From contig CAKREC010000041.1 in assembly GCA_934316925.1 (NCBI GenBank), positions 1 through 17,774 of the forward strand: a stretch of DNA of 17,774 nucleotides. The letters are read 5' to 3'. The translations under genes were made by a program, and so were the position numbers. Below are positions 1 to 8,958 of this stretch, one piece after another. The notes beneath the pieces were generated by a model. The model was not told the DNA's origin, did no database searches, and saw only the letters and a program-made list of their open reading frames with translations. This DNA is from an uncultured Eubacterium sp. Its GTDB lineage: Bacteria; Bacillota; Clostridia; Lachnospirales; Lachnospiraceae. How positions within the stretch are numbered: position 1 is the first letter of the stretch; each line of letters begins with the position of its first letter.

Positions 1-57
1 TACGATTCCTAACTGTCTGTTAGCGTTCATAGATGAAATATTGTGCTGTACGATCAT
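1..57 (-). CDS. hag: Flagellin, N-terminal start only (cut by window edge)
   Basis: The minus strand from 57 reads MIVQHNISSMNANRQLGIV, the conserved D0 start of flagellins, which typically begin M-I-I-Q-H-N-x-x-A-M-N-A-N-R. Flagellin is exported through the flagellar type III apparatus and polymerises into the filament, with this terminal helix packing in the core. Only 19 residues lie in the window; the rest is beyond position 1. A strong ribosome site, GGAGG at 70-66, sits 8 bases before the ATG. The gene follows csrA by 128 bases in the same direction. I see no convincing promoter of its own in that gap, so it probably depends on transcription through csrA. The leader carries CsrA-type sites. 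Known in the family: Bacillus subtilis hag is repressed by CsrA and released by FliW. Confidence 0.93.
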   Translation of the reverse strand, partial: MIVQHNISSMNANRQLGIV

Positions 58-64
58 AATAATT

Positions 65-74
65 ACCTCCTTGT
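65..74 (-). promoter_or_regulatory. CsrA-type site overlapping the flagellin ribosome site
   Basis: The minus strand reads ACAAGGAGGT, close to the CsrA RNA consensus ACARGGATGT, with its GGA inside the Shine-Dalgarno sequence. CsrA bound here would block ribosome loading. The placement matches the second CsrA site in the B. subtilis hag leader. Any strong ribosome site contains GGAGG, so the useful evidence is the ACAA before it together with the upstream site at 84-97. Confidence 0.55.
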
Positions 75-83
75 TTTACCGCC

Positions 84-97
84 ACAAATCCGTTTGT
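84..97 (-). promoter_or_regulatory. Candidate upstream CsrA hairpin in flagellin leader
   Basis: The minus strand reads ACAAACGGATTTGT: a perfect 5-bp stem (ACAAA/TTTGT) that shows CGGA in a four-base loop. A GGA held in a short hairpin loop is the classical high-affinity CsrA site. It lies about 10 bases before the site over the ribosome-binding sequence, a spacing that a CsrA dimer could bridge. Confidence 0.55.
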
Positions 98-145
98 AGC
101 GTTGCATGTTTTTTGTTTTCTATTTTATAATATCTAAAAGGACAA

Positions 146-164
146 GACTGCGGGCCCGGCAGCC
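146..164 (-). other. GC-rich hairpin between csrA and flagellin
   Basis: A GC-rich stretch in an otherwise AT-rich gap can fold on the minus-strand RNA as GGCTGC/GCAGTC around a 7-base loop. It is followed by TTGTCCTTTTAG, a poor T-run, so it may be a weak attenuator, a processing or stability hairpin, or nothing. It could set the ratio of csrA to flagellin message. Confidence 0.3.
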
Positions 165-185
165 CCACCCTTTCAGTTATTACCA

Positions 186-437
186 TTAGTGATTGTCCGG
201 TTTTGTTCCTCGTTTTTTTCGATAGCGTTCCGGCAGATTAGGTTCTGCATAATATGCAGTTTTGTTTTCTTTCAGCTCCGGATTTTTCTTTTCCAAAACG
301 GTACTTCGAAGAATATTCACATCTTTCGGAGCGTCGATCATAATTCGCATATGATGATTGCTTCCTCCCAGAAAAACGATTTTTACATCATCACCAATCA
401 TCAGATACTCTTCGGTACTTACAGATAATCGAAGCAT
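186..437 (-). CDS. csrA: CsrA-family RNA-binding translational regulator, divergent and long
   Basis: The 83-residue protein has the CsrA core LMIGDDVKIVFLG (residues 12-24), then APKDV (36-40) and R44, the conserved RNA-contacting arginine. CsrA forms a strand-swapped dimer that binds GGA motifs in mRNA leaders and blocks translation; in Firmicutes its classical target is flagellin mRNA and FliW is its antagonist. Two things are odd. The usual N-terminal LSRK-x-GE, which supplies the other RNA-contacting basic residues, reads LSVSTEE here, so R6 is V and K7 is S. The C-terminus also has a basic tail of about 33 residues (50-83), longer than usual. No fliW adjoins it in this window. The ribosome site AGGGAGGT lies 7 bases before the ATG. 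No promoter is visible between it and the recombinase in the present orientation; the flagellar-type promoter in the neighbouring cassette points away. Confidence 0.88.
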   Translation of the reverse strand: MLRLSVSTEEYLMIGDDVKIVFLGGSNHHMRIMIDAPKDVNILRSTVLEKKNPELKENKTAYYAEPNLPERYRKKRGTKPDNH

Positions 438-463
438 AATAAAGACCTCCCTGTCTTGTATTT

Positions 464-492
464 ATGTAACATTTGATACTAAAATGTTGCAT
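464..492 (+). repeat. Left recombination site (inverted repeat left)
   Basis: Arm ATGTAACATTT (464-474), spacer GATACTA (475-481), arm AAATGTTGCAT (482-492). The arms are inverted copies of each other except for one T in the outer arm where the other copies have C. Two 11-bp arms around a 7-bp asymmetric spacer is the usual tyrosine-recombinase core site; the spacer direction fixes the outcome. It lies between the ribosome site of csrA and that of the recombinase gene. Confidence 0.85.
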
Positions 493-519
493 ATACAAAT
501 AGGACGAGGAGGCTTATTT

Positions 520-1098
520 ATGAGTACAACACAACCAATCAGAAACAAACAACAGTTGGAAAATTTCAGAAACTATTACAAAACAATCGAACAAAAGCCG
601 CGAAATTATGCTCTTATCGTCTTTGGCTTAAATTCTGCCCTGCGAATTGGGGATATTTTGAATTTAAAATGGCAGGATATTCGAAAAGACGACCATTACC
701 GAAAACACATTACTGTTATTGAATGTAAAACGGGAAAAGAAAATATTTTTCCGCTGAATAAAGCATCTATCGAGTCACTGGAATTTTATCGGAAAGCAAT
801 TGGCAATCCCGCTGAAAATGACTATATCTTTTTCAGCCAAAAGGCAAAAAATTGTCCGATCAGTCGCTCACAGGCCTTTCGCATTATTCAAAAAGCCGCA
901 AATGCTACAGGACTGGACGAACAGCATATCAGCTGTCATTCGTTGCGTAAGACTTTTGGTTATCACGCCTGGAAAAACGGGACGCCTCCCGCATTATTGA
1001 TGAGTGTTTTTAACCATTCTTCTTATGAAATAACAAAACGGTATTTGGGAATTCAACAATTTGATAAGGACGAAGTGTACCAGAAAACCATACTGTAG
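520..1098 (+). CDS. Small tyrosine recombinase / DNA invertase, FimB/FimE-like
   Basis: The 192-residue protein is essentially only the catalytic domain of the lambda-integrase family. The whole active-site set is visible: R42 in ALRIGD, K70 in CKTGK, H140 and R143 in HSLR, H166 in FNHSS and the nucleophile Y175 in KRYLG. Larger Xer-type enzymes have an N-terminal SAM-like core-binding domain that is absent here. The size matches FimB and FimE (about 200 residues), which invert the fim promoter. I chose the ATG at 520 because GAGGAGG (506-512) sits 7 bases before it; an upstream in-frame extension to 358 runs antisense through csrA and is not real. It is the only plus-strand gene and lies between two inverted sites, so it most likely acts on those. 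I see no convincing promoter for it. Confidence 0.9.
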   Translation: MSTTQPIRNKQQLENFRNYYKTIEQKPRNYALIVFGLNSALRIGDILNLKWQDIRKDDHYRKHITVIECKTGKENIFPLNKASIESLEFYRKAIGNPAENDYIFFSQKAKNCPISRSQAFRIIQKAANATGLDEQHISCHSLRKTFGYHAWKNGTPPALLMSVFNHSSYEITKRYLGIQQFDKDEVYQKTIL

Positions 1099-1173
1099 CA
1101 GGTTTATTGTATTCACCTTTTAAAGTAGAAAAAATGCTCAGCAAATTTTTATCCAAAAAATTTTAAAAAGGTG

Positions 1174-1200
1174 TTAAGTATTTCAAAGACACTCCGATAT
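1174..1200 (+). promoter_or_regulatory. Sigma-28 (SigD/FliA) flagellar promoter, pointing right
   Basis: A -35 box TTAAGTAT (1174-1181), 11 bases, then a -10 box TCCGATAT (1193-1200). The consensus is TAAAGTTT-N11-GCCGATAA, and B. subtilis SigD promoters often end CCGATAT, so six of eight match in the -35 and seven of eight in the SigD -10, with exact spacing. It is the only such match I found near csrA and flagellin. It lies inside the invertible segment, 20 bases before the right site, and points away from csrA as sequenced. The TATAAT at 1202-1207 has no good sigma-A -35 box. Confidence 0.75.
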
Positions 1201-1219
1201 ATATAATGTCAAAAGAAAA

Positions 1220-1248
1220 ATGCAACATTTTAGTATCAAATGTTGCAT
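1220..1248 (-). repeat. Right recombination site (inverted repeat right)
   Basis: Arm ATGCAACATTT (1220-1230), spacer TAGTATC (1231-1237), arm AAATGTTGCAT (1238-1248). Its reverse complement equals the left site at 28 of 29 positions, and its arms are perfect inverted copies. The spacer is the reverse complement of the left spacer, so the pair is in inversion orientation. Confidence 0.88.
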
Positions 1249-1254
1249 TTTTTA
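1220..1254 (+). terminator. Right recombination site acting as terminator for rightward RNA
   Basis: RNA made rightwards through the site folds into an 11-bp stem with a 7-base loop, followed directly by a run of T (1248-1253). This is a plausible intrinsic terminator. It would stop the OFF-state flagellar transcript before it runs antisense into dut. The left site has no T-run on its csrA side (AAATACAAG follows), so the same fold would not terminate in the ON state. Confidence 0.55.
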
Positions 1255-1312
1255 TTTATTATAAATAGATTTCTCCCGGCTATTCATACAATTTGAAGCA
1301 ATATCCAGGCAT

Positions 1313-1352
1313 AAAAAAGTTGCTCCAAGAAAATTTTTCTCGAAACAACTTT
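1313..1352 (-). terminator. Terminator of the nrdD-nrdG-dut transcript
   Basis: On the minus strand a long stem (AAAGTTGTTTCGAGAAA pairing with TTTCTTGGAGCAACTTT, some G-U pairs) is followed by six T. This is a strong intrinsic terminator about 105 bases after the dut stop codon. Confidence 0.8.
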
Positions 1353-1371
1353 ATATGCTCTAAATCAATAT

Positions 1372-1426
1372 ATCATAAGCTTCGCTTATGATCGTTGTTG
1401 CATTCGCCAAATGCTTCGCGCTTGGC
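1372..1426. other. Cluster of hairpins after dut, possible structured repeat
   Basis: A perfect 9-bp stem with a 3-base loop lies at 1372-1392 (ATCATAAGC/GCTTATGAT). Two overlapping, mutually exclusive stems follow: GCATT/AATGC at 1400-1414 and GCCAA/TTGGC at 1406-1426. Both parts share the motif GCTTCGC. Together with the terminator at 1313-1352 they form a compact structured tail on the dut message. It could be a dispersed intergenic repeat or a small RNA domain; I cannot tell which. Confidence 0.45.
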
Positions 1427-1457
1427 TCATTGCCTTCATTATATCACAACCACATCT

Positions 1458-1904
1458 TTAGTGCGTACCCGTGCTGCCAAAACCGCCCTCACCACGGACA
1501 CTTTCATTCAGTTCTTCCACCTCATGGTACTCAGCAAAAATGTATGGCGCGATCACCATCTGTGAAATACGTTCGCCCGGTTCTACAAGAATTGCTTCTG
1601 CACTATGATTGTGAAGTGCCACCATGATCTCCCCACGATAATCCGAGTCTATAACACCAACTTTATTTGCAGGTGCTAACCCTTTTTTACAAGCCAGTCC
1701 ACTTCGTGCATATACAAGACCAACAAGTCCTTCCGGAATTTCCATTGCTATTCCCGTGTGAATAAAAGCGGTCTCTCCCGGCTGAATTGAAACAGCCTCT
1801 TCCATGCACGCATACAGATCAGCTCCTGCTGCATATGCAGTACCATACTGCGGTACGACTGCATTTTTATCCAATTTTTTAAAATTTACTACTGTTTTAT
1901 TCAT
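1458..1904 (-). CDS. dut: dUTP diphosphatase (trimeric dUTPase)
   Basis: Hydrolyses dUTP to dUMP and pyrophosphate, keeping uracil out of DNA and supplying dUMP for thymidylate synthesis. All five motifs of the trimeric family are present in order in 148 residues: AGADLYA (26-32), RSGLACKKG, GVIDSDYRGEI, GERISQMVI and the C-terminal RGEGGFGSTG that closes over the site. The length is normal. I place the start at 1904, where GGAGAA (1920-1915) lies about 10 bases upstream and homology begins; a longer in-frame start at 1940 lies within nrdG and adds 12 unrelated residues. The gene starts one base after the nrdG stop codon, so the two are surely co-transcribed and probably translationally coupled. 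Pairing dUTPase with ribonucleotide reductase makes metabolic sense: both serve dNTP supply and quality. Confidence 0.95.
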   Translation of the reverse strand: MNKTVVNFKKLDKNAVVPQYGTAYAAGADLYACMEEAVSIQPGETAFIHTGIAMEIPEGLVGLVYARSGLACKKGLAPANKVGVIDSDYRGEIMVALHNHSAEAILVEPGERISQMVIAPYIFAEYHEVEELNESVRGEGGFGSTGTH

Positions 1905-1905
1905 G

Positions 1906-2436
1906 TTAAACAATTTCTCCTTCCCAATGAACAACGTCACCGGTCTCTAGTGATTTTTTGACATCTATAATTCTTTGATTGTCAGATCCCCTGAAATTTA
2001 CTTTGAGATTTTTTTGAGCCACCACAAACTCACCATCCACCAAAATATCAATATACGAAAGCAATTCTCTGGTAATCGCAGATTCTTTGCACATATGTTC
2101 CAAAATATCTTTATCAAACAGATATCCGGAATAACACCAGATATTCTTTTCCGGATATGTGCTCTTAACTTCTCGTAATAAAGGAAGGAGCCCCTCCTGA
2201 TTAGCAGGTTCGAAAGGCTCCCCTCCGAGCAGGGACAACCCTGCTATGTATCCCGGCTTCAGGTACTGAATAATATCCTCAATCTCTTTATCAGTAAATG
2301 GTTTACCATAATTGAAATCCCATGCTTCTTTGTTGAAGCATTCTTTACAGTGATGGGTGCATCCACTGACAAAAAGGGAAACTCTTACTCCCGTGCCATT
2401 GGCTACATCATACTGCTTGATATCAGCATAATTCAT
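1906..2436 (-). CDS. nrdG: Anaerobic ribonucleotide reductase activating protein (radical SAM)
   Basis: A radical S-adenosylmethionine enzyme that makes the glycyl radical on NrdD. The 176-residue protein has the cluster motif C26-x3-C30-x2-C33 in SGCTHHCKECFN, binding a [4Fe-4S] cluster, and the SAM-binding LLGGEPF stretch near residue 70. The order of these motifs and the length are typical for NrdG. The start is fixed by GAGGT (2450-2446), nine bases before the ATG. It follows nrdD by 32 bases and abuts dut. With no promoter visible in the gap it belongs to the nrdD operon. Confidence 0.95.
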   Translation of the reverse strand: MNYADIKQYDVANGTGVRVSLFVSGCTHHCKECFNKEAWDFNYGKPFTDKEIEDIIQYLKPGYIAGLSLLGGEPFEPANQEGLLPLLREVKSTYPEKNIWCYSGYLFDKDILEHMCKESAITRELLSYIDILVDGEFVVAQKNLKVNFRGSDNQRIIDVKKSLETGDVVHWEGEIV

Positions 2437-2468
2437 ACCTAAATTACCTCGATTTCATCCTATATATT

Positions 2469-4595
2469 TTATAAATGAAGAACTCTGGCATTGATCTCTT
2501 TGGTCTTTCCAACATTCCAGAAGTTCTCTCCCAGATATCCACAGGTACGTCTGGTCACATTCATCTTGTCATGATCCTTATTGCCGCAATTTGGACATTC
2601 CCATTCCAGGTTTTCATTTACGATGATCTCGCCGTCAAAGCCACATACATGACAATAATCAGATTTTGTATTGAACTCAGCATACTGAATATTATCATAG
2701 ATATACTTTACAACTTCTTCCATGGCTTCCAGATTGTGTTGCATGTTTGGAACCTCAACATATGAAATCGCACCACCCGAAGAGATCACCTGAAACTGCG
2801 CTTCAAAATCAAACTTACTGAACGCATCGATTTTTTCTCTGACATCTACATGATATGAATTTGTATAATAACCTTTGTCCGTAACGTCTTCGATCTCGCC
2901 AAATTTCTTCTTGTCAATCTCAGCAAAACGATAACACAAACTTTCTGCCGGTGTTCCATAAAGTCCAAAATGAATTCCGGTCTCTTCTTTCCATGTGTCG
3001 GTCGCGCGACGCAGACGATTCATAACTGCCTTTGCAAACACCCCGCCTTTTTCCGTCGTATGGCTTTCGCCCGTCATAAGTTTTGTAACCTCGTACAAAC
3101 CAATATAACCAAGAGAAATCGTGGAGTATCCACCGTGCAAAAGTTTGTCGATCTTCTCACCCTTTTCCAACCGGGCGATCGCACCATACTGCCAATGGAT
3201 CGGACTTACATCACTTGTCACTCCCTCCAGCGCACGATGTCTGCACATAAGTGCTTCGAAGCACAGAGACAACCGTTCCTCCAGCAGCTGCCAGAAATAC
3301 TCGGTATCTCCTTTTGCCAGAATACCAATCTGCGGAAGGTTGATGCTTACAACACCCTGATTGAAACGGCCTTCAAATTTGTATTCGCCATTCTCATCCT
3401 TCCATGGAGTAAGAAAACTCCGGCAGCCCATACAGCTAAATACATTGCCTTCGTAGTTCTCTCGCATCTTCTTGGCTGATATGTAATCCGGATACATCCG
3501 CTTGGCAGAACACTTAACCGCAAGTTTCGTAATATAATCGTACTTGCCCCCCTTAAGAGCATTGTGTTCATCCAGAACATAGATCAGTTTCGGAAACGCC
3601 GGTGTTACATAAACACCTTTTTCATTTTTAATTCCTTCGAGTCTCTGTCGTAAGATCTCCTCAATGATCATCGCATTTTCTTCAATGTACGGATCATCCT
3701 TGTCCAGATTCAAAAACAGGGTAACAAACGGGCTCTGTCCATTGGTCGTCATCAGGGTATTGATCTGATACTGAATCGTCTGGACACCGGAACGCAGCTC
3801 ATCGCTGACTCTGTCTTTCACAAACTGTTCGATCACCTCTGGCGATACTTTATCCCCATACTTTTCAGTGTAATGTGCACGATACTTCAAAGCACTTTTA
3901 CGAAGATATTTGCCCAGATGTCTCGTATCTACCGACTGTCCACCATACTGGCTGCTTGCTACCGCAGAAATGATCTGCGTCATGACCGTACATGCCACCT
4001 GAAAGCTTTTTGGACTCTCGATCAGCTTGCCATTCATAACGGTGCCGTTGTCGAGCATATCACCAATATTGATCAGACAGCAGTTAAAGATCGGCTGAAT
4101 AAAATAGTCCATATCATGGAAATGTAAAACGCCATCCTCATGAGCCTTTGTAATCTTCTCCGGCAAAAGCATACGCTTAGTCAAATCTTTCGACACCTCT
4201 CCGGCGATCAGATCACGCTGCGTACTTGCTACATACGCATTTTTATTGGAGTTTTCCTCCATAACATCTTTATTGCTGTTCTGGATCAAACTCATAATGG
4301 AGTCATCCGTCGTGTTGGCTTTACGAACCAATTCTCTTGTATAACGATAAATAATATACTTCTTCGCAAGAACAAACTTTCCTGCTGCCATAAGCTTCTG
4401 CTCAATAATATCCTGAATGTCTTCTACCTGCATCGTATCCCGTTTCATGTTTTCAATGCTGGCAACAATACCATCGATCATGTCATCTGGCACTTTTTCA
4501 AAAGAATCCACTTCTGCATTGGCCTTTCGAATGGCAACTAAAATTTTGTTTCTGTCGTACTCTGCGGTTCGTCCGTCTCTCTTTATAACCTTCAC
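2469..4595 (-). CDS. nrdD: Anaerobic (class III) ribonucleoside-triphosphate reductase
   Basis: Reduces ribonucleoside triphosphates to deoxy forms without oxygen, using a glycyl radical. The 708-residue protein starts with an ATP-cone (about 1-95, MKVIKRDGRTAEYDRNKI), the allosteric activity site, followed by the ten-stranded barrel. Near the end is a zinc ribbon with C648-x2-C651 and C667-x2-C670, then RRTCGYLG with the radical-bearing G686. Length and domain order are those of full NrdD. The first codon is GTG (4595-4593), with AGGGG nine bases upstream; no better ATG exists. The leader contains a clear sigma-A promoter and a candidate NrdR box. The enzyme is destroyed by oxygen, which agrees with a strict anaerobe. 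Confidence 0.97.
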   Translation of the reverse strand: MKVIKRDGRTAEYDRNKILVAIRKANAEVDSFEKVPDDMIDGIVASIENMKRDTMQVEDIQDIIEQKLMAAGKFVLAKKYIIYRYTRELVRKANTTDDSIMSLIQNSNKDVMEENSNKNAYVASTQRDLIAGEVSKDLTKRMLLPEKITKAHEDGVLHFHDMDYFIQPIFNCCLINIGDMLDNGTVMNGKLIESPKSFQVACTVMTQIISAVASSQYGGQSVDTRHLGKYLRKSALKYRAHYTEKYGDKVSPEVIEQFVKDRVSDELRSGVQTIQYQINTLMTTNGQSPFVTLFLNLDKDDPYIEENAMIIEEILRQRLEGIKNEKGVYVTPAFPKLIYVLDEHNALKGGKYDYITKLAVKCSAKRMYPDYISAKKMRENYEGNVFSCMGCRSFLTPWKDENGEYKFEGRFNQGVVSINLPQIGILAKGDTEYFWQLLEERLSLCFEALMCRHRALEGVTSDVSPIHWQYGAIARLEKGEKIDKLLHGGYSTISLGYIGLYEVTKLMTGESHTTEKGGVFAKAVMNRLRRATDTWKEETGIHFGLYGTPAESLCYRFAEIDKKKFGEIEDVTDKGYYTNSYHVDVREKIDAFSKFDFEAQFQVISSGGAISYVEVPNMQHNLEAMEEVVKYIYDNIQYAEFNTKSDYCHVCGFDGEIIVNENLEWECPNCGNKDHDKMNVTRRTCGYLGENFWNVGKTKEINARVLHL

Positions 4596-4647
4596 TTTTG
4601 AGAACCCCTTTCTTCCCTTTTACTTAAATAAAAAAACTACGGTTCTT

Positions 4648-4676
4648 ATTATAACACTCCCCCTTTTTCTTGTAAA
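4648..4676 (-). promoter_or_regulatory. Sigma-A promoter of nrdD-nrdG-dut
   Basis: On the minus strand, TTTACA (4676-4671) and TATAAT (4653-4648) are separated by 17 bases. The start would be near 4641, giving a 5' leader of about 45 bases. A 9-bp inverted repeat, AAACTACGG (4634-4642) and CCGTAGTTT (4783-4791), brackets the promoter; its meaning is unknown. Confidence 0.75.
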
Positions 4677-4682
4677 CAACAA

Positions 4683-4698
4683 AAACTATATTTTGTGT
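4683..4698 (-). promoter_or_regulatory. Candidate NrdR box upstream of nrdD promoter
   Basis: The plus strand reads AAACTATATTTTGTGT, matching 14 of 16 positions of the NrdR consensus acaCwAtATaTwGtgt. It lies just upstream of the -35 box. NrdR boxes usually come in pairs about three helical turns apart. Only a weak half site, ACACT at 4654-4658 between the promoter elements, is near that distance, so the pairing is uncertain. Confidence 0.5.
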
Positions 4699-4794
4699 TT
4701 TTTCTTGTTGTTCCTGTTTTTTCCCTACCACATCATGTGTTTTTACTATCGTAGTAGAAAAGGAGAAAAAGCATTATAAAGCCCGTAGTTTCCC

Positions 4795-5862
4795 TTATTT
4801 TTCGTATATTTGTTTCCAAAATCCCTGAAATGCAACCGGAAGTGCCAGATCATTTGCCAGTTCTTCTTTTGACACCCATACAATATCTTGTGTCAGTTTT
4901 CCTGCCTGATCTGGCTTCATTTCCACACAATAACCGTTCATGTGCCACTCCACATGTGAAAAAATATGTTTCACCGGCTGCAGCTTTTGAATGTTTCCGT
5001 AAGAAATATCCTGCTCTTGTAAATATTCTTCCAATATTTTTTTTGTGAAATTTCCTTCTACCCATGGAAATTCCCACAAGCCGGCTAACAGTCCCCGATC
5101 CGATCGTTTACAGATGCCAACCTGACTGCCCTGCATAGGGATAAACACCGTTTTCTTTTCAATTTTTCTCGCTTTTTTCTGCGTTTTTACCGGCAATTCC
5201 ATTACCCGATCCTGAATTCTTGCCTGACATTTTTCCCGGATCGGACATTGCTCACACTTAGCCATTCCATTTGGAATACAGATCGTTTCTCCCAATTCCA
5301 TGATCCCCTGGTTAAAATCACCCGGCTTATCTCCGGGGATTACCGCCATGATCGATCGCTCCACTTTGTGACGCAACGCCATCTTCATAATATCTTCTTC
5401 ACAGTTGAGATACCGCATCAGAACACGAAGCACATTGCCATCGACCGCTGGCGCCGGTACACGATATGCAATCGAAGCAACTGCCCCAGCTGTATAATTG
5501 CCGATTCCGGGAAGTTTTTTCAATTCCTCATAGGAATCCGGCAAGGCCCCATCATATTCTTCCATCACAAGTCTCGCCGCCTTTTTCATATTTTTCACGC
5601 GGCTGTAATAACCAAGTCCCTCCCACAATTTGAGCAGTTCCTCATCCGATATCTCTGCCAGATCCCGGATCTGTGGCAATCGTTCAATAAATTTTGCATA
5701 ATACGCCTTTACTGCCTCAATCCTTGTTTGCTGCAGCATGATCTCCGAAACCCAGACATGATAAGGACTAGGAGCATCCCGCCAGGGCATGCTCCTATGA
5801 TTTTTCCCATACCACTCGCATATGGGAGTTACAATATCTTTTAGTTGAAAAATAGTCTCCAT
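4795..5862 (-). CDS. mutY: Adenine DNA glycosylase MutY
   Basis: Removes adenine mispaired with 8-oxoguanine, preventing G-to-T mutation. Visible in the 355 residues are E40 in SEIMLQQT (the catalytic acid), the helix-hairpin-helix LPGIGNYTAGAV (118-128), catalytic D141 in AVDGNVLRV and the iron-sulfur cysteines C195, C203, C206 and C212. The C-terminal part (from about 235) is the NUDIX-like domain that recognises 8-oxoguanine, including FSHVEWHM. Spacing of the first two cysteines is one residue longer than in E. coli, which I believe is a common clostridial variant. The gene starts 5 bases after the stop of the sigma-like gene, and its ribosome site AGGGAGA overlaps that gene's end, so the two are translated from one message. 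Confidence 0.94.
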   Translation of the reverse strand: METIFQLKDIVTPICEWYGKNHRSMPWRDAPSPYHVWVSEIMLQQTRIEAVKAYYAKFIERLPQIRDLAEISDEELLKLWEGLGYYSRVKNMKKAARLVMEEYDGALPDSYEELKKLPGIGNYTAGAVASIAYRVPAPAVDGNVLRVLMRYLNCEEDIMKMALRHKVERSIMAVIPGDKPGDFNQGIMELGETICIPNGMAKCEQCPIREKCQARIQDRVMELPVKTQKKARKIEKKTVFIPMQGSQVGICKRSDRGLLAGLWEFPWVEGNFTKKILEEYLQEQDISYGNIQKLQPVKHIFSHVEWHMNGYCVEMKPDQAGKLTQDIVWVSKEELANDLALPVAFQGFWKQIYEK

Positions 5863-5867
5863 GTAGT

Positions 5868-6623
5868 CTATTCTCCCTGACCCAGTTCGATCTTATCCTT
5901 GGAAAAATCTACATACATCTGAATTTCTTCTCGATCCATATGCGTAAATTCCATGAGTTCTTCCATGGTCGCTACCCGGCCATATTCTTCCGCCAAGGCT
6001 CTGGTTGCCTCCAGTAAAAGATTCATCCTTGCAACGACCGAATGGATACTGTCATCATCAGATAATTGCTCATCCACAAGCTCGATCAACCGGCTTTTTA
6101 CCGCATGATCAATGGCAACTGAATAATCCAGTACCTCCTGGTTGCCACACAGCATATTTACGCAGGTCATCAGTTCAAGGTTAGCTTCCTGTATCAGATC
6201 CTCAAGCAATACACCACGGCCTTTGTACTGATCCGCTATCTTTGCCACATGTGACAAGTGTGCTTCCACAACAGACGCCACAGCTCCTTCTTCGCCACCA
6301 CGCAATGAAAGAAATAACGCTTCCCGCTCCGGATCCGTGTATACTGGCAACTGCTCCAGCTCTTCCCAGTACATTTTCAAATATTTTGAATCTGCTTTTT
6401 TATTTTCTTTCCTGCCATCTGCTGATTCGGTGATCTTCTTTTCCGCTCCGTCAACTTCAATATTATGTTCGGAAAGATAAGCATAAACCAATGACTGCTG
6501 CTCCTCTGTCAAATTCAGATCAGAGCAATAATCATCAACCTCTTCTTTTGTCAGAAGATTTTCCTTGGTACGCCCAAGCTCGATCAAGTCTGCCATCTGT
6601 TGTAAAAACTTCTGCTGATCCAT
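5868..6623 (-). CDS. Sigma-70-like protein lacking region 4
   Basis: The 251-residue protein resembles a housekeeping sigma factor in pieces. Residues 20-57 (LLTKEEVDDYCSDLNL, EEQQSLVYAYL) look like region 1.1. Residues 96-152 look like region 2.1-2.2, ending in GRGVLLEDLIQEANLELM. Residues 193-246 match region 3 (LLLEATRALAEEYGRVATM, EELMEFTHM, REEIQMY). The stretch where region 2.3-2.4 should melt and read the -10 element (161-182) lacks the aromatic-rich YATWWIRQ signature, and the protein stops straight after region 3, so no -35-reading region 4 exists. It may be a degenerate or regulatory sigma, perhaps binding core polymerase without normal promoter recognition. AGGAGG lies 6 bases before the ATG. 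It sits 35 bases after the dehydrogenase gene and 5 before mutY. The family likeness is clear; the role is unknown. Confidence 0.75.
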   Translation of the reverse strand: MDQQKFLQQMADLIELGRTKENLLTKEEVDDYCSDLNLTEEQQSLVYAYLSEHNIEVDGAEKKITESADGRKENKKADSKYLKMYWEELEQLPVYTDPEREALFLSLRGGEEGAVASVVEAHLSHVAKIADQYKGRGVLLEDLIQEANLELMTCVNMLCGNQEVLDYSVAIDHAVKSRLIELVDEQLSDDDSIHSVVARMNLLLEATRALAEEYGRVATMEELMEFTHMDREEIQMYVDFSKDKIELGQGE

Positions 6624-6658
6624 AGTTTTCCTCCTGAATAATGTAGCGCCCCTCGCCT

Positions 6659-7828
6659 TTACAAAGCGCTTTTATAGATTGCAATAACGTCCTTTTTCGC
6701 AAGCTTTACATAGTTTCCTTCTGTCTTGCGACTGCCAAGTAACTTATCCGTCATTTTTTCTATATCTTCTTCTTTTGCGCCAATCTCTGCAAATGTGCTC
6801 GGCATATCAATACTCTTCAAGAATTTTTCAAATGCTTCGATTCCTTTTAATGCCGTTGCTTTTGGATCTTTTTCATCCAACGGAATGTCCCATACACGTG
6901 TAGCAAACTGCACAAGTTTGTCCGGATTGATCTCCAGGACATACCGCATCCATTTTGGTGCTATCACAGCCAGACCAGCACCGTGAGTCACATCATAAAG
7001 TGCAGACAGCTCATGCTCAATATGGTGGCTTGCCCAGTCCTGAACGCGGCCTACACCACAGACATTATTATGTGCCAGCATACCTGTCCACATAATGTTG
7101 GCTCTGGCATCATAATTGTTCGGATCCGCCATAACTCTAGGCGCTTCATAGATCATCGTTTTCAAAAGACCTTCGCACAATCGATCGGTCACTTCCACTT
7201 CTGTCGTATTGGAAAAATAACGTTCACAAATATGAATCATAATGTCTGTTGCGCCGGCAGCAGTCTGATACGGTGGCAGTGAGCAGGTAAGTTCCGGATT
7301 CAATATCGAAAATTTAGGACGAAGCAGATCACTTTTCGTTCCTTTCTTGATCTGCGTTTCTTCATCGGTGATAACCGTATTCGGAGATCCTTCGCTTCCG
7401 GCCGCTGCAATCGTAAGAATGGTTCCAATCGGAAGAGCTTTCTCTACTTTTGCTTTTCCACGGTAAAAATCCATAAAATCGCCGTCATACAAGCTTCCAG
7501 CCGCGATCGCTTTGGATGAATCAATCGTACTTCCGCCACCGACAGCCAGGATAAAGTCTACTTTTTCTTTTTTGCAAAGTTCCACGCCTTCATAGACTAA
7601 GCCACTTCTTGGATTTGGTTTTACTCCTCCCAGCTCAACAAAAGGAATTCCCGCTTTCTGTAATACATTTACGACACGATCATACAATCCGTTCCGTTTG
7701 ATCGAGCCTCCACCATAATGGAGCAATACCTTGCTTCCTCCAAATTTTGTGATCAGCTCTGCCACATGCTCTTCGGCTCCTTTTCCAAAATCAAAATACG
7801 TCGGTGCATAAAATGTAAAATTATCCAT
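6659..7828 (-). CDS. Iron-containing alcohol dehydrogenase, butanol-dehydrogenase type
   Basis: A type III (iron-dependent) alcohol dehydrogenase, likely reducing acetaldehyde or butyraldehyde with NAD(P)H to dispose of fermentation electrons. Visible features are the nucleotide-binding GGGSTIDSSKAIA, the metal-ligand region ATDIMIH and two further histidine ligands in HHIEHELSALYD and THGAG. The length of 389 residues and the motif set match the BdhA/YugJ group. I place the start at 7828 (MDNFTFYAPTYF) because GGAGA (7841-7837) lies 8 bases upstream; a longer start at 7843 has no ribosome site and would place this one inside the gene. A good promoter lies upstream. The sigma-like gene and mutY follow closely and may share its transcript. 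Substrate is not readable from sequence. Confidence 0.9.
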   Translation of the reverse strand: MDNFTFYAPTYFDFGKGAEEHVAELITKFGGSKVLLHYGGGSIKRNGLYDRVVNVLQKAGIPFVELGGVKPNPRSGLVYEGVELCKKEKVDFILAVGGGSTIDSSKAIAAGSLYDGDFMDFYRGKAKVEKALPIGTILTIAAAGSEGSPNTVITDEETQIKKGTKSDLLRPKFSILNPELTCSLPPYQTAAGATDIMIHICERYFSNTTEVEVTDRLCEGLLKTMIYEAPRVMADPNNYDARANIMWTGMLAHNNVCGVGRVQDWASHHIEHELSALYDVTHGAGLAVIAPKWMRYVLEINPDKLVQFATRVWDIPLDEKDPKATALKGIEAFEKFLKSIDMPSTFAEIGAKEEDIEKMTDKLLGSRKTEGNYVKLAKKDVIAIYKSAL

Positions 7829-7869
7829 ATCATTTATCTCCATTTCTATAAATTCAAAACACTACGTAT

Positions 7870-7898
7870 AGTATATCGTTTTCCATTCACATTTGCAA
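7870..7898 (-). promoter_or_regulatory. Sigma-A promoter of the alcohol dehydrogenase gene
   Basis: On the minus strand, TTGCAA (7898-7893) and TATACT (7875-7870) with a 17-base spacer, about 40 bases upstream of the chosen start codon. Confidence 0.7.
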
Positions 7899-7940
7899 TT
7901 TTTTCATGATTGAATTTCAAATGTACCCTAAAATACAAAT

Positions 7941-7970
7941 AAAGTCCCAAATGAAATCATTTGAGACTTT
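7941..7970 (-). terminator. Terminator after tRNA-Gly
   Basis: The minus strand folds as AAAGTCTCAAATGA/TCATTTGGGACTTT with a two-base loop (one G-U pair), followed by an interrupted T-rich stretch. It lies just 3' of the tRNA and upstream of the dehydrogenase promoter. Confidence 0.65.
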
Positions 7971-7982
7971 ATAAAATAAAAG

Positions 7983-8055
<73 letters not shown>

Positions 8056-8084
8056 ATTTTGCATCTGTGTCAGACACAATTGGT

Positions 8085-8113
8085 ATATTATCATATCTTA
8101 TATTATATGTCAA
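8085..8113 (-). promoter_or_regulatory. Sigma-A promoter of tRNA-Gly
   Basis: Perfect -35 box TTGACA (8113-8108), 17-base spacer, -10 box TAATAT (8090-8085) on the minus strand, about 30 bases before the mature tRNA 5' end. It lies just past the tpiA terminator. Confidence 0.8.
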
Positions 8114-8135
8114 ATACTTTTTTCACAAAAACAAT

Positions 8136-8181
8136 AAAACGCCACAAAATACGATTCCAATGGTAGTATTCGTGACGTTTT
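8136..8181 (-). terminator. Terminator after tpiA
   Basis: The minus strand forms a long stem (AAAACGTCACGAATAC against GTATTTTGTGGCGTTTT, with G-U pairs and one bulge), followed by ATTGTTTTT. It closes the gap-pgk-tpiA group. Confidence 0.75.
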
Positions 8182-8214
8182 ACTGCTAACTATAATAAAT
8201 ATTTCATTTCGAAA

Positions 8215-8958
8215 CTATGCATTTACGATTTTACCAAAATCCGGTTTTAAGGACGCTCCTCCTACCAGACCACCATCAATATTCGGTTCCGCAAGAAGTT
8301 CTGCCGCATTTTCTGAATTCATAGAGCCGCCGTAAAGAATATGAATCTTTTCTGCTGTCTCTTCATCATACATCTTACAGATCAGTTCACGGATCACACC
8401 ACATACTTCATCTGCCTGGCTGGCCGATGCTGTCTCTCCGGTGCCAATGGCCCAGATCGGTTCATAAGCGATCACTGCTTCTTTTGCCTGCTCCTTTGTG
8501 ACATTCTGAAGTGCGATCTTGATCTGGCTGCAGATCCATTCAACATATACACCTTGCTGTCTCTGTTTTAAAGATTCACCGCAGCAAATGATCGGTGTAA
8601 TGCCATGCTCCAGAGCTTTTAAAACTTTTTTATTTACAGTTTCATCCGTCTCTGCAAAATATTCTCTTCTCTCTGAATGTCCGACAATGACATAGTGAAT
8701 TCCGGCATCTGTGAGCATTTTAGGTGAAATCTCACCAGTATACGGACCAGTCTCTTCGTAGTACATATTTTGAGCCCCAATATTTATAGTACTACCCTTT
8801 GTTGTCTCTAATGCTGGAAAAATATCAATCGAAGGTACACAGAACACCACATCAACATCCTTATTATCCACTAATGGAAGGAGTTCTTTTAACAAAGCAA
8901 CTGCCTCACTTGGTGTATTATTCATCTTCCAATTCCCAGCAATAATTCTTCTACGCAT
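8215..8958 (-). CDS. tpiA: Triose-phosphate isomerase
   Basis: Interconverts dihydroxyacetone phosphate and glyceraldehyde 3-phosphate. The 247-residue barrel shows K11 in GNWKMN, catalytic H94 in VGHSERR, catalytic E166 in [11 protein letters not shown] (with the closing loop 6) and the phosphate-binding YGGSM and GLVGGASL. The start at 8958 ([13 protein letters not shown]) has AAAGGGG eight bases before it; a longer GTG start at 8976 would lie within that ribosome site region. It is last in the gap-pgk-tpiA series, 63 bases after pgk, with a terminator-like hairpin between. Confidence 0.97.

Follow-up and report, generated by a model that had tools for sequence, protein, structure and literature searches.

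In Salmonella, hin-fljBA uses a serine recombinase, hix sites and an enhancer, and fljA lies beside the flagellin gene. In E. coli fim, the recombinase genes of FimB and FimE are found outside fimS. B. subtilis has one CsrA, and Lachnospiraceae flagellins are prominent immune antigens. The flg switch of C. difficile is a 154-bp segment with 21-bp repeats and no promoter that exerts control after transcription initiation; a single recombinase, RecV, serves several switches, and the target of flg is the flgB operon (excerpts of PMC5386303). In hCom2, inverton group 139, which goes with invertase group 35, consists of Clostridia invertons (32/33) with a nearby tyrosine-type recombinase, and the terms flagell-, motility, Roseburia and Lachno- are absent from the main text (PMC11892184). 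For B. subtilis, CsrA has been described to occlude the hag ribosome-binding site, and the excerpted text holds nothing on phase variation for hag-CsrA-FliW (PMC6529632). For the motility loci of Roseburia and Eubacterium, csrA and flagellin promoters of the sigma-28 type have been described; the portions consulted do not mention recombinase, integrase or phase variation (PMC3720852). Likewise, the portions consulted of PMC5622956 and PMC11868660 offer no match to the system described here, and those of PMC5903667 contain no occurrence of flagellin, csrA, Roseburia or Lachno-. We found no published description of this system in the open-licence literature, a scope that leaves bioRxiv and most subscription journals outside.

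Here we analyzed a stretch of 17,774 nucleotides from an uncultured Eubacterium sp. of the Lachnospiraceae, which we call the window. Near its start is what is very probably a self-contained invertible promoter cassette, in which the recombinase likely turns the segment around, and this would direct the promoter at either csrA and flagellin (ON) or a predicted terminator (OFF). The features are listed in Table 1.

Table 1. Features at the flagellin end of the window, with the evidence for each
Feature	Position	Strand	Basis or remark
Start of the flagellin gene (19 codons, continuing beyond the window); N-terminus MIVQHNISSMNANRQLGIV	1..57	-	
Flagellin ribosome-binding site ACAAGGAGG, possible second CsrA site	66..74	-	Sequence; CsrA role proposed
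CsrA-type hairpin with GGA in the loop, flagellin leader	80..101	-	Covariation over 31 sequences
csrA, divergent, 83 aa with C-terminal extension; predicted first gene read when ON	186..437	-	Pfam CsrA
csrA ribosome-binding site ACAGGGAGG, putative CsrA site	446..454	-	Sequence; CsrA role proposed
Left (csrA-side) recombination site	464..492	+	11-7-11, spacer GATACTA
Tyrosine recombinase gene, 192 aa, intact	520..1098	+	PF00589, alignment, PDB profile match XerA
Predicted sigma-28 promoter TTAAG-N15-CCGATAT, away from csrA (OFF)	1174..1200	+	Sequence, consensus
Predicted intrinsic terminator: right site with flanking A- and T-tracts	1215..1253	+	16-pair stem, folding
Right (distal) recombination site, inverted copy, same spacer	1220..1248	-	Core of terminator-like hairpin

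The original prediction saw in this locus the hin-fljBA order of recombinase, promoter, site and flagellar genes, with a tyrosine in place of a serine recombinase. With the details of hin taken as general background, this holds: in both systems the recombinase and an outward promoter lie within the invertible segment and a regulator gene lies beside flagellin, which would suggest convergent evolution. The cassette differs from hin-fljBA in its tyrosine recombinase, 11-7-11 sites, sigma-28-type promoter and terminator-like far site, and in having csrA in the place of fljA. With E. coli fim it shares a small tyrosine recombinase of about 200 aa and a promoter on the invertible segment, but the recombinase gene is inside the segment and the protein falls below the cut-offs of the NCBIfam DNA-invertase models. 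It also resembles C. difficile flg and RecV in having a tyrosine recombinase, inverted repeats and a predicted ON/OFF control of flagella in a member of the Clostridia (excerpts of PMC5386303). However, the window cassette is not a short promoterless segment with its recombinase outside; it spans 785 bp, carries its own recombinase and a sigma-28 pattern inside, and has csrA-flagellin as its target.

The two recombination sites of the window, 29 nt each, are inverted and complementary at 28 of 29 positions. The left site is ATGTAACATTT-GATACTA-AAATGTTGCAT and the right site, on the opposite strand, is ATGCAACATTT-GATACTA-AAATGTTGCAT; each is an imperfect palindrome around the same asymmetric spacer. 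With a score of 26.5 this pair is the top inverted repeat found by a scan of the whole window, while the best in 200 first-order Markov shuffles of bases 1-3000 scored 17.5. Inverted repeats flank the promoter, as in an inverton, with the promoter called by consensus only. The complete cassette of opposite 29-bp sites, 192-residue recombinase and sigma-28 promoter that had been proposed for 464..1248 was found in all its parts, and those bounds are right for the ends of the sites, but the feature at the distal end runs past 1248 as a terminator-like hairpin.

In a motif scan, the recombinase was flanked by a site pair in 61 of 85 loci, window counted (80 genome loci, four viral loci and the window, leaving out a viral locus of 25% identity); here and in the counts below, related loci are not independent of one another. 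Within a pair, the spacer was identical at 7/7 positions in 60 of the 61 loci and at 6/7 in the other one, while between loci the mean match was 3.2/7, with 32 distinct forms across the 61 loci. Identity within pairs combined with diversity between loci is what strand exchange in the spacer by a tyrosine recombinase would enforce, and we infer that the exchange takes place in these 7 bp. The motif scan gave no site pair in the remaining 24 loci, in some of which a generic scan then found one (e.g. L061, L078 and L019). Some recombinases, such as those of L003, L004, L038, L066 and L076, have neither a site pair nor csrA adjoining. In L021 and L041 both sites are on one side of the recombinase.

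The recombinase matches Pfam Phage_integrase (PF00589) over residues 10-176 with 99.7 bits (cut-off 27.1, E 2.1e-28), and its PDB profile match is XerA (E 2.1e-12). R42, K70, H140, R143, H166 and Y175 are invariant in an alignment of 21 recombinases, and we take them to be the catalytic R-K-H-R-H-Y set of tyrosine recombinases. Phage_integrase was the sole Pfam family matched at E up to 1, so by this search the protein is not a serine recombinase of the Hin type. The label FimB-like in the original prediction was right as to a tyrosine recombinase of 192 aa and is otherwise loose: two NCBIfam "tyrosine-type DNA invertase" models, presumably of the FimB/FimE type, gave 39.1 and 53.4 bits, below their cut-offs of 221 and 222. 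Invertase group 35 of hCom2 may be part of a wider family of recombinases that includes this protein, and inverton group 139 may overlap with the present system. Inspection by eye revealed no conserved promoter ahead of the recombinase gene. Flipping of the segment would be reversible and catalysed by this enzyme.

Relatives of the recombinase are numerous (4043 at E up to 1e-3); among the 120 matches listed, the closest is 98% identical and the next are at 70-71%. For comparison of gene neighborhoods we used 86 loci, made up of the best 80 of at least 577 confirmed stretches from a scan of genome contigs, five loci from viral contigs and the window. A CsrA match was present in 68 of these, a flagellin match in 70, and the csrA start lies at most 300 bp from the recombinase in 65. 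Among 397 genomes drawn evenly from one family-level group, 33 had the recombinase (E up to 1e-40), as did 25/62 genomes of the genus around L062 and 11/39 of the genus around L001, which is the closest locus to that of the window. On a tree of 105 rows, the presence of csrA required 11 changes, compared with a shuffled mean of 23.3, and no shuffle in 500 was as low. Judging from these matches, the cassette system is widespread in the Lachnospiraceae, and dozens of relatives share the arrangement.

Between the recombinase stop and the right site, a -35-type TTAAG (1174-1178) is followed after 15 nt by CCGATAT (1194-1200). The + strand consensus bears out the earlier claim that the promoter as sequenced points away from csrA and flagellin. 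After inversion the -10 would be at 512-518 on the - strand, about 75 nt from the csrA start, close to the "about 70" bases given before. An outward sigma-28 pattern is present in 58/61 recombinase-to-site tails and ends 15-22 nt before the site, compared with 1/61 on the reverse strand and 2/61 after one shuffle per tail; the three tails lacking it contain CCGATAT with an off-consensus -35. In OFF loci, no sigma-28 pattern faced csrA at up to 350 bp from the csrA-side site (0/55), while 52/55 had the outward distal one, and just 2 of 56 intervals between the csrA and flagellin starts contained such a pattern. A sigma-28-type factor would be expected to use the cassette promoter, and csrA and flagellin would be silent when OFF, although a sigma-70-type promoter may read csrA in that state.

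Behind the promoter, the distal hairpin of the window has a 16-pair stem and then a T-tract, with a folding energy of -16.3 kcal/mol (z -5.4), and is predicted to stop the OFF-state transcript. This strengthens the earlier reading of the window as apparently OFF. Among 57 csrA-linked site pairs, 50 had a T-tract (5 or more T in 8 bases) immediately beyond the distal site, and 3 had one beyond the csrA-side site. The seven loci without one directly outside the distal site all have at least 5 T in some 8 bases within 40 nt. In four of these seven (L030, L042, L075 and L040) the stem is lengthened by the inner tail pairing with the distal flank, and no strong T-tract follows the lengthened stem in L075 and L040. 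Predicted transcripts fold more stably on the distal side in 55/57 loci, with means of -21.1 kcal/mol distally and -11.4 on the csrA side. When the 29-bp site and two flanking bases were folded alone, the distal side was more stable in 47/57 (-11.3 vs -8.4), and L062 went in the wrong direction, with -10.8 on the csrA side and -3.6 distally. The role of the far site as a predicted terminator in the OFF state is new here.

From 112 loci with both csrA and the recombinase, we dropped 19 that shared 120-nt stretches with another locus, leaving 93 distinct loci. By pattern, 67 of these are OFF and 2 are ON (L062 and L028), 15 have no inverted pair, and 9 have no pattern match. When these nine were read by eye, seven had the promoter directed away from csrA and two toward it (L132 and L136). 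In total, 74/78 readable csrA-linked loci are OFF and 4/78 are ON, two of the latter by eye only. The opposite orientation, whose absence from related genomes would have counted against the original prediction, was found in these loci; through L062 and L028, both orientations are represented across species. So few ON loci would also be expected if the cassette were locked or inverted only on rare occasions; the excess of OFF may come from gut selection, from a bias in recombination or from assemblies that represent the commoner form. We called orientation by promoter direction because three loci (L140, L144 and L147) break the rule of recombinase direction, which we rejected as a criterion: by eye, the relative order of recombinase and promoter is opposite in them and the promoter still points away from csrA.

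L062, an ON locus in a Roseburia clade, mirrors its close OFF relatives L067 and L077 across both flanks: csrA is on the promoter side in L062 and on the other side in L067 and L077. When the 60-base flanks of L062 were compared with those of L067 and L077, the crosswise scores were 32.0 and 30.0 (right to left) and 15.0 and 18.5 (left to right), and the straight scores were 6.5-9.0. In the control pair L067-L077, the flanks score 32 and 40 straight and 6 and 6 crossed. All three loci share identical distal outer half-sites and identical promoter-side inner half-sites, and the csrA-side outer half-site agrees at 9/11 bases, which places the crossover within the sites. Compared with the more distant L048 and L071, L062 scores 9.5-10.0 straight and 7.5-12.0 crossed, values that do not discriminate between the two. 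L028 gives the same sign against L047, more weakly than L062 (18.0 and 12.5 crossed vs 4.0 and 10.0 straight); against L079, L046 and L059 the crossed and straight scores differ little, and the OFF control pair L079-L047 is uninformative as well.

One could argue from the large majority of OFF loci, and from the one mismatch between the two sites of the window, that this is a fossil or locked switch, which once inverted and is now OFF in the lineage, with csrA-flagellin silent or read from elsewhere. We consider this improbable. The recombinase is open and keeps all of the residues that are invariant in the alignment, spacers would be expected to decay without use and yet are identical in nearly all pairs across the 32 types, and both orientations are found in one small clade (L062 vs L067 and L077). 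A second alternative is that the switch acts on mRNA, through a leader hairpin or recombinase read-through, and that csrA-flagellin has a further promoter. This has a precedent in the promoterless C. difficile flg switch, which is controlled after transcription initiation (excerpts of PMC5386303). We give it a very low probability in the present case, where 58 of 61 cassettes have the sigma-28 pattern in a matching position and almost no other such pattern could read csrA (0/55 and 2/56, as above).

The match to Phage_integrase also raises the question of whether an integrase of a mobile element landed beside csrA by chance, with the sites being its attachment sites, and distant relatives do occur on viral contigs (four at 44-46% identity and one at 25%). 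We find this scarcely credible and have rejected it, since the sites are inverted and not direct, the segment holds no other gene, and the position next to csrA is conserved, as the spacing to the recombinase in 65/86 loci indicates. Moreover, the four closer viral relatives are without such sites and, together with two cellular ones, form a supported group of six without csrA. We retain the reading of an invertible promoter cassette, for which we propose the following mechanism. Bound to both sites, the recombinase would exchange strands in the spacer and invert the 785-bp segment. In the OFF orientation, the sigma-28 transcript would run into the terminator formed by the far site. In the ON orientation, it would pass the weaker csrA-side hairpin into csrA and flagellin as one shared message, and the second CsrA would probably limit flagellin translation through the GGA hairpin of the leader and the ribosome-binding site, by analogy with CsrA and hag in B. 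subtilis.

The CsrA of the window scores 65.5 bits with Pfam CsrA, above the cut-off of 27, and fails the two NCBIfam csrA equivalogs (42.4 and 34.4 bits, cut-offs 73 and 70.1). As a query it has 780 relatives, the nearest at 99%. In eight genomes tested, each had one copy of a canonical csrA (86.8-94.4 bits), and six of the eight also had divergent copies, nine in total (54.5-61.6 bits). By coordinates, six of these nine are the cassette-linked genes. The genomes without a divergent copy are those of L001 and L009, which are two-flagellin types without csrA at the cassette. The remaining three copies (L119, L120 and L121) all adjoin flagellin. L120 and L121 each show two sites whose starts are only 154 bp apart, and a sigma-28-like pattern directed away from csrA; L119 has no site pair. 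The recombinase of L120 is 2.4 kb away, while no recombinase was found in the 12 kb examined around L121, so one in trans would be needed there. By sequence comparison, the csrA of the cassette is a divergent second copy that travels with it, in contrast to the one CsrA of B. subtilis, and this is new here. As a side observation, three csrA-flagellin loci occur in the L037 genome, which includes L120 and L121, and each of them has a predicted invertible promoter directed away from csrA.

The ribosome-binding site of csrA resembles what we take to be the CsrA-binding motif, and the GGA-loop hairpin of the flagellin leader presumably has the shape of a CsrA target. The interval between csrA and flagellin could be delimited in 48 of 68 loci, and a GGA-loop hairpin with a stem of at least 6 was present in 38 of the 48, compared with 1.1% of shuffles. 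Across 31 hairpins, window included, the helix has 60 double-sided changes vs 18.6 in shuffles, and 89.6% of its cells are paired vs 28-43% in slid versions; the 31 come from 35 distinct hairpins and were preselected for at least 6/9 pairs, a selection that leans towards pairing. Double-sided changes occur at 7 pairs, a count that is ordinary for shuffles (180/500). The covariation indicates that a CsrA-type hairpin is a feature of the flagellin leader, which is also new here. Searches of Rfam gave nothing above the gathering threshold in 12 loci except a T-box elsewhere, and the best matches for window positions 1-1400 were far below threshold. We also noted by eye a second GC-rich hairpin-like element between csrA and the GGA hairpin, at 105-185 on the - strand of the window and in many relatives, with a core of CTAACCTAGGGG or GGGCCCGGC flanked by TAATAA and TTATTATAA. 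It is possible that this is an unnamed RNA element or a processing site.

In three loci (L001, L009 and L058) the cassette is between divergent flagellin genes and has a T-tract on neither side, as expected if both directions have a target. Both flagellins of L001 are Pfam-confirmed, with LicD downstream on each side, and both of L058 are likewise confirmed, with a family 2 glycosyltransferase downstream on each side. Overall, we lean towards the view that this is a widespread Lachnospiraceae flagellin switch that differs from both Hin and RecV: a single site would serve for recombination and as a one-sided terminator, the ON state would bring its own CsrA brake, some terminator-free relatives would alternate between two flagellin operons that each have a modification enzyme of their own, and most sequenced members would be OFF. 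As part of the same reading, and with similar reserve, the two-flagellin variant may be the tyrosine-recombinase counterpart of phase 1 and phase 2 in Salmonella.

If flagellin is phase variable and mostly OFF in these bacteria, cells of identical genotype would differ in motility, TLR5 and antibody exposure, and carrying a flagellin gene would not imply expressing it. Since existing metagenome reads can reveal the orientation of the cassette, the question is testable at scale. A recombination site that acts as a terminator on one side only would be a neat means of achieving a tight OFF state.

Several other arrangements were seen among the relatives. L058 (positions 1-8371) has a third flagellin start and, 5.5 kb away, a third site with an identical spacer (TGGTCCA), so that a single promoter could in principle serve all three flagellin loci. 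Cousins of the recombinase adjoin large putative surface-protein genes in L054 and L060, of which the one in L060 has Ig-like domains by Pfam and the one in L054 has no Pfam match, and in L139 and L148 they adjoin what by eye are putative sugar-modification genes; the module may therefore have been reused for other surface structures. In L016, a second sigma-28 pattern with a site of a different spacer (positions 1176-1250) is 4.7 kb from the first cassette.
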